DNA of 57,362 bases from NCBI GenBank assembly GCA_007679095.1, contig VEFU01000026.1:1-57362 (forward strand), given 5' to 3'. Under the pieces are notes generated by a model, which saw nothing but the letters and a program-made list of their open reading frames with translations, ran no database searches and was not told the DNA's origin. This stretch comes from Paenibacillus bovis. GTDB taxonomy: Bacteria > Bacillota > Bacilli > Bacillales > Bacillaceae_C. This document shows, piece by piece, positions 357-46,314 of this stretch; the stretch's first letter is position 1, and the number at the start of each line of letters is the position of its first letter. A program made the position numbers and the translations under genes.

Positions 357-382
357 AGACAGAAAAGCGAAGGCGACTGATC

Positions 383-493
383 AGCGGCTTACGAACGGGA
401 GCCAATCCTGTACTGAGATAAAGGAAACACGGCGAGGGAACGAGCCGATGTTGACTTATCGTAGGGAAAGGATTGGATCGTTCGCTAGCCGCT
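383..493 (+). repeat. Structured intergenic repeat, copy 1 (covarying stems)
   Basis: This is one of four copies of a repeat with a nearly fixed core (GAGATAAAGGAAACACGG, later GATGTTGACTTATC) inside long complementary arms. Here the pairs are AGCGGC/GCCGCT, CGAACG/CGTTCG, CCAATCCT/AGGATTGG, GATAA/TTATC and CGGC/GCCG. The arm sequences differ from the copies at 22489-22905, but the pairing is kept. The 3' flank carries GCTAGACA, as in the other copies. It lies between pbpB and the IS110 end, in the opposite orientation to both. Confidence 0.85.
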
Positions 494-581
494 AGGAGCC
501 TAAGCTAGACAGGCGTTTAGCGCCGAGGAGGCTCATTAGCCTTGTCTAGTTGTAGGCGCTATCGGCTCGAGGTCAAATAAC

Positions 582-621
582 CTGAGACATGAAAGGCAAA
601 GTACGCCTTTCTTTGTCTCAG
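582..621. repeat. Strong inverted repeat / hairpin
   Basis: CTGAGACA (582-589) pairs with TGTCTCAG (614-621), and AAAGGC pairs with GCCTTT inside it. There is no clear T-run on either side, so it is not a typical intrinsic terminator. It lies in the noncoding DNA downstream of pbpB. Confidence 0.6.
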
Positions 622-667
622 AACATTTGCTTGTCGCCGATAAGCAAGCGCCTTTCACTTTTCTAAG

Positions 668-21459: not shown

Positions 21460-22371
21460 TTACTCTGCTGGTTGAGTTCTTGGTTCTAATAATGCTGCCT
21501 CGTTTATTTTATCTCCTTCTTCTTGTTCCTTTTTGTACCACTCAAAGAAGATCTTAATTAACATTGTTCCTAAAATAATCTCTTGCATTATTTTCATAAT
21601 TACTCCACCAAGCTGTTGATCCTCTAATGGTTTCATATTGACGAATAATTCTGGTCCGCTTATCGATAGATTAGTCAATAATGTTCCCGGTACACAAAGT
21701 TCCATCGCCTTCATCCACATTTCACCGTCTGTATATGTACCATACATAGCTGCTGGTGCGAAGATGATCAACCCACAAGCTGGTGTTAATAATACACTAT
21801 CACCAATTAAATAAGCTAATTTCTTCAAACCATGTAGTTGGTGATGTCCCTCTAATTTATTTACTAATGGCCACCATTGTAAAATAGCAAATATAAAGAG
21901 AACTACAGTATATAATGCATGAATAAAAATATTCATCTTCACTGCATCCATAATTAATGGTATATGGTAAACGGAGAATAAGCCATTAAACATTATTATT
22001 GCAATTAATGGTTTAGTAAGGAATTTAAAAACTGGTTCGATTACTCGAATACCTACTATCTTTCTCCAAACCCAGTTAGGAATACCCATAATGACAAGTA
22101 TAGGTATAACTAAATATAAAATTGCCATTTGTACCATATGGAACGTAAACATGATATGAGCCATTAAATCGACAGGAGATCCTTTTGTTGCATATAACAA
22201 TACCATTGCAATAACAAAAAGAATTGCTTCACTCTTCTTTAATGGTTCACTTTCTGAATATTTATGGCGATTTTTCACAGTGATATAAAAATACCCAGCT
22301 ATAATAAGCACGACAAAAATGAAAAAATATGGACTCCATAATGCACGAAATCCAAAAATACTTAAAGGCAT
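21460..22371 (-). CDS. ctaG: Cytochrome c oxidase assembly factor CtaG
   Basis: A 303-aa polytopic membrane protein with about seven segments, of the Bacillus CtaG (caa3_CtaG) family, required for active caa3 oxidase. Conserved histidines occur in H-I-M-F-T-F-H-M-V-Q-M (about residues 76-86) and Y-H-I-P-L. It is unrelated to proteobacterial CtaG (Cox11). ATG at 22371 is chosen because GAGGTGA ends five bases before; a GTG at 22380 overlaps the SD. In B. subtilis ctaG directly follows ctaF; here about 770 bases of repeats intervene, so it needs its own promoter or read-through. Confidence 0.92.
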   Translation of the reverse strand: MPLSIFGFRALWSPYFFIFVVLIIAGYFYITVKNRHKYSESEPLKKSEAILFVIAMVLLYATKGSPVDLMAHIMFTFHMVQMAILYLVIPILVIMGIPNWVWRKIVGIRVIEPVFKFLTKPLIAIIMFNGLFSVYHIPLIMDAVKMNIFIHALYTVVLFIFAILQWWPLVNKLEGHHQLHGLKKLAYLIGDSVLLTPACGLIIFAPAAMYGTYTDGEMWMKAMELCVPGTLLTNLSISGPELFVNMKPLEDQQLGGVIMKIMQEIILGTMLIKIFFEWYKKEQEEGDKINEAALLEPRTQPAE

Positions 22372-22488
22372 TACCTTCACCTCTTTACTAGGTTTCTTCC
22401 CTAACCTCTATTATACTTTTCCCACCCCCCCACTTCAACAAAACCAAATGACAAGTTCATGACAAAACTAAAAGCGACAGCGACTGTT

Positions 22489-22603
22489 TATCGACGTAAA
22501 AACTTCAGGGCCTTTGACTGAGATAAAGGAAACACGGTAAGCCGCTAGGCGAACCGATGTTGACTTATCGGAGGGAAAAGGACAAGAAGTTTTCTAGTCG
22601 ATA
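22489..22603 (+). repeat. Structured intergenic repeat, copy 2
   Basis: Arms TATCGAC/GTCGATA, AAAACTTC/GAAGTTTT and CCTTT/AAAGG enclose the fixed core with GATAA/TTATC and CGGT/ACCG; a further GCC/GGC pair lies inside the apical stem. It is nearly identical to copy 4 (22791-22905) and clearly different in arm sequence from copies 1 and 3. Confidence 0.88.
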
Positions 22604-22643
22604 GGAGCTGGAGCTAGACAACGAAAAGTGGAAACGCCTGGTT

Positions 22644-22749
22644 AGCGACGTACGGATTTCTAAGAGCCCTGACGAGATAAAGGAAACACGGCGAGGAACG
22701 AGTCGATGTTGACTTATCGTAGGAAGGGATCTGAAATCCGCTAGTCGCT
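22644..22749 (+). repeat. Structured intergenic repeat, copy 3
   Basis: Arms AGCGAC/GTCGCT, CGGATTTC/GAAATCCG and CCCT/AGGG enclose the same core, with GATAA/TTATC and CGGC/GTCG (one G-U pair if RNA). It sits between copies 2 and 4 in the same orientation, joined by GCTAGACAA/GAAAAGYGGA-type linkers. Confidence 0.88.
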
Positions 22750-22790
22750 AGGCGTTGGAACTAGACAAAGAAAAGCGGACAGCGACTGTT

Positions 22791-22905
22791 TATCGACGTA
22801 AAAACTTCAGGGCCTTTGACTGAGATAAAGGAAACACGGTAAGCCGCTAGGCGAACCGATGTTGACTTATCGGTGGGGGAAGGACAAGAAGTTTTCTAGT
22901 CGATA
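22791..22905 (+). repeat. Structured intergenic repeat, copy 4
   Basis: Nearly a duplicate of copy 2, differing mainly in the GGAGGGA versus GGTGGGG stretch after the core. The copy 2/copy 4 similarity extends into the flanks on both sides, which points to duplication of a larger unit around copy 3. Confidence 0.88.
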
Positions 22906-23006
22906 GGAGCTAGAGCTAGACAAAGAAAAGTGGAAACGCCTGGTCAGCGACGTGGGCATACAGGAGGTAGGTTACGTCAACGTTGTGACGTACAGGATGT
23001 ACTAAT

Positions 23007-23043
23007 GCAGGCGAAGCGACAGGATGTCGCAGCTTAAGCCTGC
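23007..23043 (+). repeat. GCAGGCGAAGCGAC hairpin module, copy 1
   Basis: GCAGGC..GCGAC pairs with GTCGC..GCCTGC. The 14-base left arm recurs exactly at 47139-47152, where the hairpin is perfect. It is another dispersed noncoding element. Confidence 0.65.
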
Positions 23044-23102
23044 ACAGGACATGCCGGTTTTAGTCGACGCACCACTCTCTAAGGTCCCACAATGGAAATG
23101 AA

Positions 23103-23136
23103 CAAAAAAATATAGGGCTCCACTAACGGAAGCCCC
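23103..23136 (-). terminator. Terminator after ctaF
   Basis: GGGCTTCCG/TGGAGCCC-type stem on the minus strand followed by TATATTTTTTT. It closes the ctaCDEF unit. Confidence 0.8.
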
Positions 23137-23146
23137 ATACTATTAA

Positions 23147-23476
23147 TTACCACCAAACAATTGTTAGAAAACCAAGTAGGATGGAAAAGCCGATTATAGC
23201 TCCACCATATAAAAACAATTGTGGTGCTTCATGCCCTTTATTTCCCATGTGCATGAAGTAATATAATTGAAAAATAACTTGAACAACTGCTAGTAGTAGT
23301 ATTACTGGTACTACAAACCATTTATCAAAGCCTGCATACACTGCACCAAATGCTACTAGCGTTAAGAAGATGGAAATTGCGAAAGAAATTACTTGGTGAC
23401 GCATTTCCTCTGCATTTCTTCTACGACGATATTCATATTCTACATTAGGATTGTTAGAATTTAAGTTGTTTGCCAT
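23147..23476 (-). CDS. ctaF: Cytochrome c oxidase subunit IV (CtaF)
   Basis: A 109-aa small subunit of caa3 oxidase with three membrane segments (about 28-48, 54-76 and 86-107) and a charged N-terminus. It contains the subunit IV signature Q-L-Y-Y-F-M-H-M-G. ATG at 23476 is chosen because the product then starts M-A-N-N and lies two bases after the ctaE stop. The longer frame to 23527 overlaps ctaE. It is the last gene before the terminator. Confidence 0.93.
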   Translation of the reverse strand: MANNLNSNNPNVEYEYRRRRNAEEMRHQVISFAISIFLTLVAFGAVYAGFDKWFVVPVILLLAVVQVIFQLYYFMHMGNKGHEAPQLFLYGGAIIGFSILLGFLTIVWW

Positions 23477-23478
23477 CT

Positions 23479-24111
23479 TTATCCCACCATCCCCATTAAA
23501 TATACTACAGTGAAGATAAATACCCATACAACATCAATAAAGTGCCAATAGATACTAGCTACATAGAACTTTGGAGCATTATATAGGCTTAATCCTCTCT
23601 TCGCATTTCTTACCATTAGAGCGATAATCCACCCAAGTCCAAACACTACGTGTGCACCGTGGAATCCGACTAACGTATAAAATGCAGAACTAAAAGCACT
23701 TGTTGTAAATCCAAATCCATATTCATGTGTATAATGATAAAACTCATAAATTTCTAATCCAAGGAAGCCCAAGCCTAATAATACAGTAATTAACAACCAA
23801 GCTTGCATCTTCTTGAAGTGGTAATTCTTCATATGATATATCGCATACACACTTGTAATGGAACTTGTCAGTAATAGCATTGTCATTAGAAATGCTAATG
23901 GTAATTCAAATAAATCCTTAGCTAATACATCAGTTGCAGGATTTGGTACTTTATCCTTTAATGCAAGATATGTTGCAAACAAGGAAGCGAAAAGTACTGT
24001 TTCGCCACCTAGAAACAACCAGAATCCTAAAAACTTATTTTTTCCCTCTAATGTTGCTCTTTCGGGTGATTCAGGCCATGTTTTTGGTGTATAAGGTTGT
24101 TCAACATGCAT
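23479..24111 (-). CDS. ctaE: Cytochrome c oxidase subunit III (CtaE)
   Basis: A 210-aa polytopic subunit III. Five membrane segments are recognisable, with the conserved F-H-G-A-H-V segment near 150-155, a glutamate-containing E-I-Y-E-F-Y block and W-H-F-I-D-V-V-W near the C-terminus. It stabilises subunit I; it binds no metal. Its ATG overlaps the ctaD stop by one base (TAATG). Confidence 0.96.
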   Translation of the reverse strand: MHVEQPYTPKTWPESPERATLEGKNKFLGFWLFLGGETVLFASLFATYLALKDKVPNPATDVLAKDLFELPLAFLMTMLLLTSSITSVYAIYHMKNYHFKKMQAWLLITVLLGLGFLGLEIYEFYHYTHEYGFGFTTSAFSSAFYTLVGFHGAHVVFGLGWIIALMVRNAKRGLSLYNAPKFYVASIYWHFIDVVWVFIFTVVYLMGMVG

Positions 24112-45663: not shown

Positions 45664-46314
45664 TTACACTTCAGAAGTGATGTTTAATCCAGAATCTTTA
45701 TAAAACTGTAGTTTTGCTTCATTAAATTTATCTGTTGCTTCATTAAACTTTTCATTTGCTTCTTTTACTTTTTCATATGTCTCATTACGGGCTTCAATTT
45801 GTGCTAATAAATCTTCTTCTTTAAGATTTTCATCTTTTAACAATTCATAAATCTTACGATCCTCTGCAAGAACATTTATATTAGCGGTATATAATTCTTC
45901 ATATACTTGATATCGCTCATCCATAATACTTTTTAAGTCTTCTGCTTGCTTCTTTAAATCAGCATCTTTTATTTTTTCCATTTCATCTACTATTTTATTA
46001 AATTCGTCATAAGATGAAGAAATGGATTCTTTTTCTTTATTAATATGCTCTTCTCTCTTATCTATATTTTCTAATGCATTATTAGATAGAGTAGAGATTT
46101 GTTCAAATTCCTTTAATCCAAGCGCAATGATTTCATCAAAAAGATTCTTTTCTTCTTCTACTAGGTCAGCAATAGGCTTCTGCTGATCCTCAAAAACTTT
46201 TTCTTCCTGAGCACTTGCTTCAATTATTTCATAAATGGTTTCTTCAGGTGATGTACACCCAGCTAAAATTACCGAAAAAATAAATATAAGAATTGCTATA
46301 TATTGCTTTTTCAT
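45664..46314 (-). CDS. ykyA: YkyA family lipoprotein
   Basis: A 216-aa lipoprotein, lipobox L-A-G-C (Cys near 21), followed by an almost wholly helical, coiled-coil, Glu/Lys-rich domain. It matches the YkyA family (putative cell-wall-binding lipoprotein) and lies beside pdhA as in B. subtilis. ATG at 46314 has AGGAGGG upstream; the frame continues to 46338 within the SD region. It faces away from def. Confidence 0.9.
   Translation of the reverse strand: MKKQYIAILIFIFSVILAGCTSPEETIYEIIEASAQEEKVFEDQQKPIADLVEEEKNLFDEIIALGLKEFEQISTLSNNALENIDKREEHINKEKESISSSYDEFNKIVDEMEKIKDADLKKQAEDLKSIMDERYQVYEELYTANINVLAEDRKIYELLKDENLKEEDLLAQIEARNETYEKVKEANEKFNEATDKFNEAKLQFYKDSGLNITSEV

Follow-up and report, generated by a model that had tools for sequence, protein, structure and literature searches.

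A structured repeat family of Bacillaceae with directional placement at terminators, probably representing a non-autonomous mobile element

We describe here a family of structured repeats that forms a tandem array between ctaF and ctaG of Paenibacillus bovis and recurs at many other places in this and related genomes. These repeats are probably non-autonomous, structure-bearing mobile elements that insert directionally at terminators. A preliminary description, made from the sequence alone, had left the choice between a noncoding RNA and a mobile palindromic unit; dispersed copies, presence or absence at orthologous sites, truncation, nesting, and placement at terminators favor the mobile unit, and a noncoding RNA is less likely. 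The family was undescribed in the literature searched, which was mostly open-access with subscription papers mostly outside it, and matches of the core sequence in paper texts were, among the matches listed, chance occurrences in unrelated organisms.

The window, i.e., the whole 57,362-nt stretch of DNA that was analyzed, contains the following features of this family and its surroundings.

363..510, plus strand: lone copy of the repeat unit, away from the array (covariance model R1, 139.3 bits)
544..662, minus strand: second-family repeat, a distant relative of the unit (R1, 48.0 bits)
21460..22380, minus strand: ctaG, cytochrome c oxidase assembly factor, flanking the array (TIGR02737, 3.6e-117)
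22470..22619, plus strand: repeat unit 1, AAAAGC...GCTAGAC (R1, 136.9 bits)
22624..22766, plus strand: repeat unit 2, different-arm variant (R1, 148.5 bits)
22771..22921, plus strand: repeat unit 3 (R1, 127.8 bits)
22925..23079, 3' limit approximate, plus strand: unit 4, divergent (read from the sequence; no R1 match)
22989..23052, minus strand: Bacillaceae-1 RNA motif RF01690, in unit 4 (37.4 bits; gathering score, 35)
23104..23136, strand not assigned: A-run and terminator-like hairpin behind ctaF, faced by the 3' side of the array (read from the sequence; hairpin at the same place in relatives)
23147..23527, minus strand: ctaF/coxD, cytochrome c oxidase subunit IVB, flanking the array (TIGR02908, 1e-45)

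The window also holds a ylbH leader (Rfam RF00516; 15379-15493, minus strand) and a 21-bp tandem repeat of 3.6 copies (45713-45787). The leader and a CoxD_Bacillus match fit a genome of Bacillaceae type.

Units 1 to 3, of about 147 nt each, follow one another with short spacers between them and together span 22470-22921; they lie on the plus strand, and both flanking genes lie on the minus strand. The preliminary description had recognized the three tandem copies, and the helices that it named are present where it placed them, but the units are longer than it had noted, with two further outer helices beyond its ends. It had also regarded the three copies as covarying. The compensatory arms are there, but because units 1 and 3 agree at 146 of 150 aligned positions, compared with 110 of 141 for units 1 and 2, the window alone holds just two variants and thin evidence of covariation. 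Unit 4 has the 5' end GAAAAGTGG, as in the other units, and the arms CAGCGACG/GTCGACG, and carries the Bacillaceae-1 motif in place of the GATAAAGG core.

Selection for structure, as proposed in the preliminary description, is established by 106 aligned copies from the window, the P. bovis genome, and further genomes. Scanning the latter genomes for the core, with a variable loop allowed, gave at least 118 stretches; of 155 core matches, including those of P. bovis, 45 without recognizable ends were dropped, 107 distinct sequences were kept, and one 165-nt copy was excluded, leaving 106 rows. The unit forms 43 pairs in seven helices, for which 91.8 percent of the cells in the alignment are paired, and this value falls to 27.5 to 46.1 percent when the 3' partners are slid by one to three columns. 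Double-sided changes occur in 28 of the 43 pairs, a number reached by none of 500 shuffles. The covariation check suggested earlier was carried out with a simplified substitute based on the idea of R-scape, using a FastTree tree and Fitch substitution counts redistributed on its branches to yield 15 null alignments. Against this phylogenetic null, the ten top-scoring column pairs of the whole alignment were all helix pairs; 8 of the 41 tested pairs scored above every null maximum and 15 had E <0.05. As far as this substitute reaches, the refuting outcome envisaged earlier, an absence of significant covarying pairs, did not occur. The core is invariant in the 106-copy alignment because the search pattern demanded it. 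Model R1 was scanned against 100 sources, and 142 model matches, for which the core was unrestricted, showed double changes in 40 of the 43 pairs, core helices included, in an alignment that leans towards the structure since it was fitted to the model. Folded as RNA, copies 1 and 2 gave z-scores of -8.2 and -6.0, respectively.

Two observations show which strand is the structured one. By parsimony over 139 distinct rows, mismatches originating from Watson-Crick pairs were 150 G-T compared with 62 A-C, a ratio of 2.4, and 22 of 31 informative column pairs leaned towards G-T (helix 6 set aside). Furthermore, the strand read in the preliminary description (sense) outfolded the antisense strand in all four sequences compared, both as DNA and as RNA; as RNA, the z-scores of these sense strands ranged from -5.9 to -8.2. 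Since G-T mismatches on this strand are A-C on the complementary strand, the G-T excess and the better folding identify sense as the structured strand; the excess fits RNA and single-stranded DNA alike.

The P. bovis genome contains 37 exact cores, compared with none for a reversed-pattern control, and at least 65 model matches, with 150 of 863 candidates scored. Of the 34 genomes sampled from the GTDB family, 32 have exact cores, with up to 116 per genome (97 in genome G002 and 116 in G024); the reversed-pattern control gave two matches in total over the 34 genomes. Class-wide, 4 of 151 genomes matched, under thin sampling and with a stricter two-box pattern, and the distribution is thus patchy. 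Hosts among the 80 listed loci include Neobacillus, Pontibacillus, Virgibacillus, Lentibacillus, Halobacillus, Jeotgalibacillus, and Bhargavaea, and a host function could also explain that the core is kept across several genera. One Neobacillus copy, used as query, detected no unit among 72,556 plasmid and 50,697 phage records, and an exact pattern detected none in viral contigs; diverged copies could escape both kinds of search. Such an absence is unusual for an active mobile element and counts against one.

In the ctaF-ctaG gap of 16 species of the genus, model matches with E <1e-6 were present in four (P. bovis, G008, G006, and G003), weak matches in G002 (E 0.027) and G001 (E 0.077), and no match up to E 1 in ten, and the units at this site occur in both orientations across species. 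Behind gdhA, matches with E <1e-8 were found in 2 of 16 species, G003 and G007, the unit of G007 being interrupted by a module like Bacillaceae-1, and no unit was found in the other 14; G008 has just a 17-nt blastn match there, and the model match of G011 lies on the other side of gdhA. By eye, remnants had seemed present at ctaF (G004 and G013) and behind gdhA (G011); neither the model nor blastn supported them on the terminator side, and they are left out of the counts. Patchy orthologous presence, both orientations, truncated copies, and nesting with Bacillaceae-1 make mobility of the family very likely. Other short palindromic repeat arrays occur at the same two intergenic places, one in the ctaF-ctaG gap of G010 (locus L036) and one behind gdhA in P. 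bovis (locus L330); the palindromic repeats of these places read GTCCATAAGGAAC..CTAATGGAC and GGGAATCATACACGCATTTTGATTCCC.

The repeats are largely intergenic, with 3 of 120 merged loci within a long open reading frame. Considering the 98 of these 120 loci with both neighbors, the unit was oriented opposite to the genes of tandem pairs 46 times and along them 25 times, and 19 of the 98 gaps were convergent and 8 divergent, compared with 26 and 54, respectively, of 214 gaps without a unit. A miniature inverted-repeat element (MITE) of a DDE transposase would have terminal inverted repeats and a target-site duplication; the ends of the unit pair over 3 bp (AGC/GCT) before an internal loop and then a longer helix. 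A search of 118 loci for a larger element with the same ends revealed 64 end pairs within 3 kb, all of less than 400 nt, and 60 5' motifs without a 3' motif within 3 kb. No target-site duplication was established; the 5' end of the unit, GAAAAGC, resembles the A-tract of a terminator, blurring the junction.

Within 130 nt of the array, 30 of 115 arrays have a hairpin with an A- or T-tract at their 3' side, compared with 1 of 115 at the 5' side, and random windows from the same loci gave nine and seven hits of the two types in 600. By the same strict rule about three quarters of the arrays have no terminator, which counts against the proposed insertion at terminators. Since the 30 hairpins differ from copy to copy, they do not belong to the element. 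Arrays preferentially turn their 3' side to the A-tract of an intrinsic terminator, whichever side of the hairpin they occupy: at ctaF, the element precedes the terminator in G008 and G006 and lies behind it in P. bovis, G003, and G002, with its 3' side towards the hairpin in all five. Because G002, G012, and G015 have the gdhA terminator but no element there, the terminator is probably older than the insertion. A larger count, 41 versus 2 of 157 arrays (34 to 54 versus 1 to 5 under four rule settings), includes the 115 arrays; owing to this overlap, and because several hairpins in the loci of the window genus belong to a neighboring second repeat, it does not serve as our main figure. In the loci of the window genus, terminators accompanied 11 versus 1 of 41 arrays. 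We conclude that there is good support for directional placement at terminators, which, in the literature searched, is new for such a repeat.

Some arrays or units carry a 3' tail of 45 to 67 nt, and many copies are tail-less. Of 109 3' flanks, 55 resemble the flank of another copy in sequence, although five of these are further units rather than tails, and many tails stop at an A-run ahead of unrelated hairpins. The longer tail type (L069, L079, L091, L132, and L146) has TTATCCACA, which we take to be the DnaA-box consensus, beside an AT-rich stretch; the exact sequence is present in 5 of 157 arrays.

In some genomes, the units are also oriented with respect to replication. In G016, the unit was opposite to the leading strand in 49 of 57 merged loci; 74 of 114 flanking genes lie on the leading strand in this genome, and where the flanking genes are not both on it, the ratio is still 27:6. 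With near-terminus loci excluded, opposite-to-along ratios were 47:8 in G016, 38:13 in Neobacillus sp. OS1-33 (G034), and 37:7 in Neobacillus sp. SuZ13 (G035). Among the best-scoring model matches listed, there was no bias in G003 (13:13) and G006 (22:20) and a weak one in G020 (17:13; 11:5 for exact cores), and G019, apparently the same genome as G037, had too few copies to judge (5:3 for exact cores). These counts assume a terminus opposite dnaA and rely on estimated chromosome lengths for G003, G006, and G020 and on contig C1 as the whole chromosome of G016; near-terminus loci were those within 4 percent of the chromosome length (exact cores) or 150 kb (model matches). The bias against the leading strand is thus real in some genomes and not general; being strong in three of seven chromosomes (G016, G034, and G035) alone, it was rejected as a universal feature.

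The arrays themselves are polar. Of 108 arrays, 30 are followed on their 3' side by a further or partial unit, whereas 4 have one on the 5' side, two of the latter full-length (65 unplaceable units were excluded). The extra units on the 3' side match the beginning of the unit and often repeat its variable arms. The 5' end is sharp: among 66 single copies, the common sequence preceding the unit is only about six bases long. The 3'-side extra units and the sharp 5' end suggest that copying starts at a fixed 5' end. Simple replication slippage was considered and set aside, as it does not alone yield 3'-truncated second units bearing the arms of the first. In G006 (C6:2805232-2810101), tandem units recur with a 363-bp period in at least 14 copies of identical score.

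Bacillaceae-1, which comes from PMC2864571 according to the part of that source available, is catalogued by Rfam as an sRNA, and no function is entered for it in the accessible part of PMC9029176. It shares its hosts with the unit and was found in unit 4 and in apical loops of core units. However, it is a 67-nt motif with other conserved loops, a nested or adjacent module rather than the same thing. The core units have no match to RF01690 at E up to 5, 22989-23052 (minus strand) being the only part of the array that matches, and at this permissive threshold Rfam gave, besides Bacillaceae-1, only a chance lncRNA match. The P. bovis genome has 41 Bacillaceae-1 matches, of which 11 lie inside the apical loop of a core unit (10 on the opposite strand); the remaining 30 divide equally into 15 that have a core within 500 bp and 15 that are distant from any. 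With 26 of 41 inside or near core units, the Rfam sRNA is in this genome mostly a module of the repeat or a neighbor to it. A second, shorter repeat family with similar ends and a different core (GACAAGC...TTGACTTATGACCTCGAG in L101) often lies beside the first and matches R1 weakly, for instance at L101:6137-6256 and L130:4419-4699.

Among repeats known from Bacillaceae, the bcr repeats of the Bacillus cereus group are intergenic, in some cases MITE-like, and often located in untranslated regions (PMC3446304, in the part available). The bcr1 length of 147 to 167 bp given in the accessible text of PMC2267715 is close to that of our unit; compared by description only, bcr1 differs in being reportedly specific to the B. 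cereus group. The same part of PMC2267715 describes Bhal-1 of Bacillus halodurans, a stem-loop repeat family with 36 copies of 74 bp and hence, again by description only, also a Bacillaceae stem-loop family, but of half the size.

The dispersed copies might each act as RNA, i.e., belong to a multi-copy family of functional noncoding RNAs or 3'-untranslated-region elements transcribed from the sense strand. Covariation, the one-strand G-T excess, the strongly negative folding z-scores of the four sense strands as RNA, nearby terminators, and the catalogued status of Bacillaceae-1 all agree with this. It nevertheless appears rather unlikely to us, given that a common promoter is not seen in the six or so shared upstream bases, that units in tandem gene pairs more often oppose the genes, that most orthologous sites examined lack the unit, and that the adjacent terminators differ from copy to copy. 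A palindromic, intergenic, arrayed repeat present in many copies also brings to mind REP/BIME elements and their RAYT (TnpA-REP) transposases, and thus a DNA hairpin moved by a Y1 (IS200/RAYT-like) transposase on the single-stranded lagging-strand template. The replication-strand bias in three genomes and Y1_Tnp matches in 12 of 16 genomes tested would fit. However, REPs, as characterized in the part of PMC3733652 available, are of 20 to 40 bp with a GTAG or CGTC foot, whereas the unit, with its seven helices, is not a short single hairpin with such a foot. Moreover, no link to a Y1 gene was seen: the copy-rich genomes G002 and G024 have no Y1_Tnp match, and 30 Y1 loci contained no unit (0 R1 matches). 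By geometry, the lagging-strand template carries antisense, yet sense is the structured strand. We therefore regard this route as improbable.

A further kinship is with class C (IIC) group II introns, which insert at intrinsic terminators and whose endonuclease-less members use strands of the replication fork as primers (PMC4424553, in the part available). The unit resembles them in lying beside such terminators, predominantly by its 3' side. It differs in its small size, in having no open reading frame, and in its structured strand, which is not the one lying downstream of the terminator T-tract but its complement. Rfam gave no group II intron family in the window at the gathering score or in the array at E up to 5, and three copy-rich genomes had no RVT_1 match (see below). 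Another route would be SINE-like retroposition, with the T-tract of the terminator priming a reverse transcriptase that copies sense RNA. The sharp 5' end, the A-run that marks the 3' junction in many copies with a tail, the fixed terminator side, and antisense as the leading-strand sequence in three genomes are in line with it. We consider it very improbable, as many copies have no tails and the copy-rich genomes G002, G006, and G024 have no RVT_1 match. RVT_1 is present in 14 of the 20 genomes tested, a set that included P. bovis; since low-copy genomes (G014, G018, and G028) also have none, its occurrence does not follow copy number. Thus, missing from copy-rich genomes, neither the Y1 transposase nor the reverse transcriptase is supported as the mobilizer, for which a lost or unrecognized enzyme or host machinery is possible; that these searches gave no mobilizer counts against the mobile element. 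More speculatively, the family might be a SINE-like retroposon of bacteria. Structured RNA beginning at a fixed 5' end would be copied into DNA at the replication fork, primed by the T-tract of a terminator hairpin, by a host polymerase or a since-lost reverse transcriptase, and would so have spread through Bacillaceae without an element-specific transposase, but this is a long shot.

We favor the non-autonomous mobile element with directional insertion at terminators. The element would consist of one unit of about 147 nt, single or in tandem and sometimes extended by the 3' tail. An enzyme would recognize the folded unit via its core and purine-rich internal loops and attach it to a terminator hairpin on the side of the T-tract, which would probably be single-stranded at the replication fork. 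Repeated or incomplete rounds of copying from the fixed 5' end would then account for tandem arrays and for second units truncated on the 3' side. The array between ctaF and ctaG would be one such insertion, made up of three core units and a further unit with Bacillaceae-1.

Our survey reveals a repeat family without an Rfam match in nearly all sampled genomes of the GTDB family (32 of 34) and in many other Bacillaceae genera. In P. bovis, 26 of 41 Bacillaceae-1 copies are carried by the repeat or adjoin it, which bears on the annotation of that Rfam sRNA. The way in which the family is placed, directionally at terminators and in some genomes also against the leading strand, provides a handle on how palindromic repeats without a known transposase spread.
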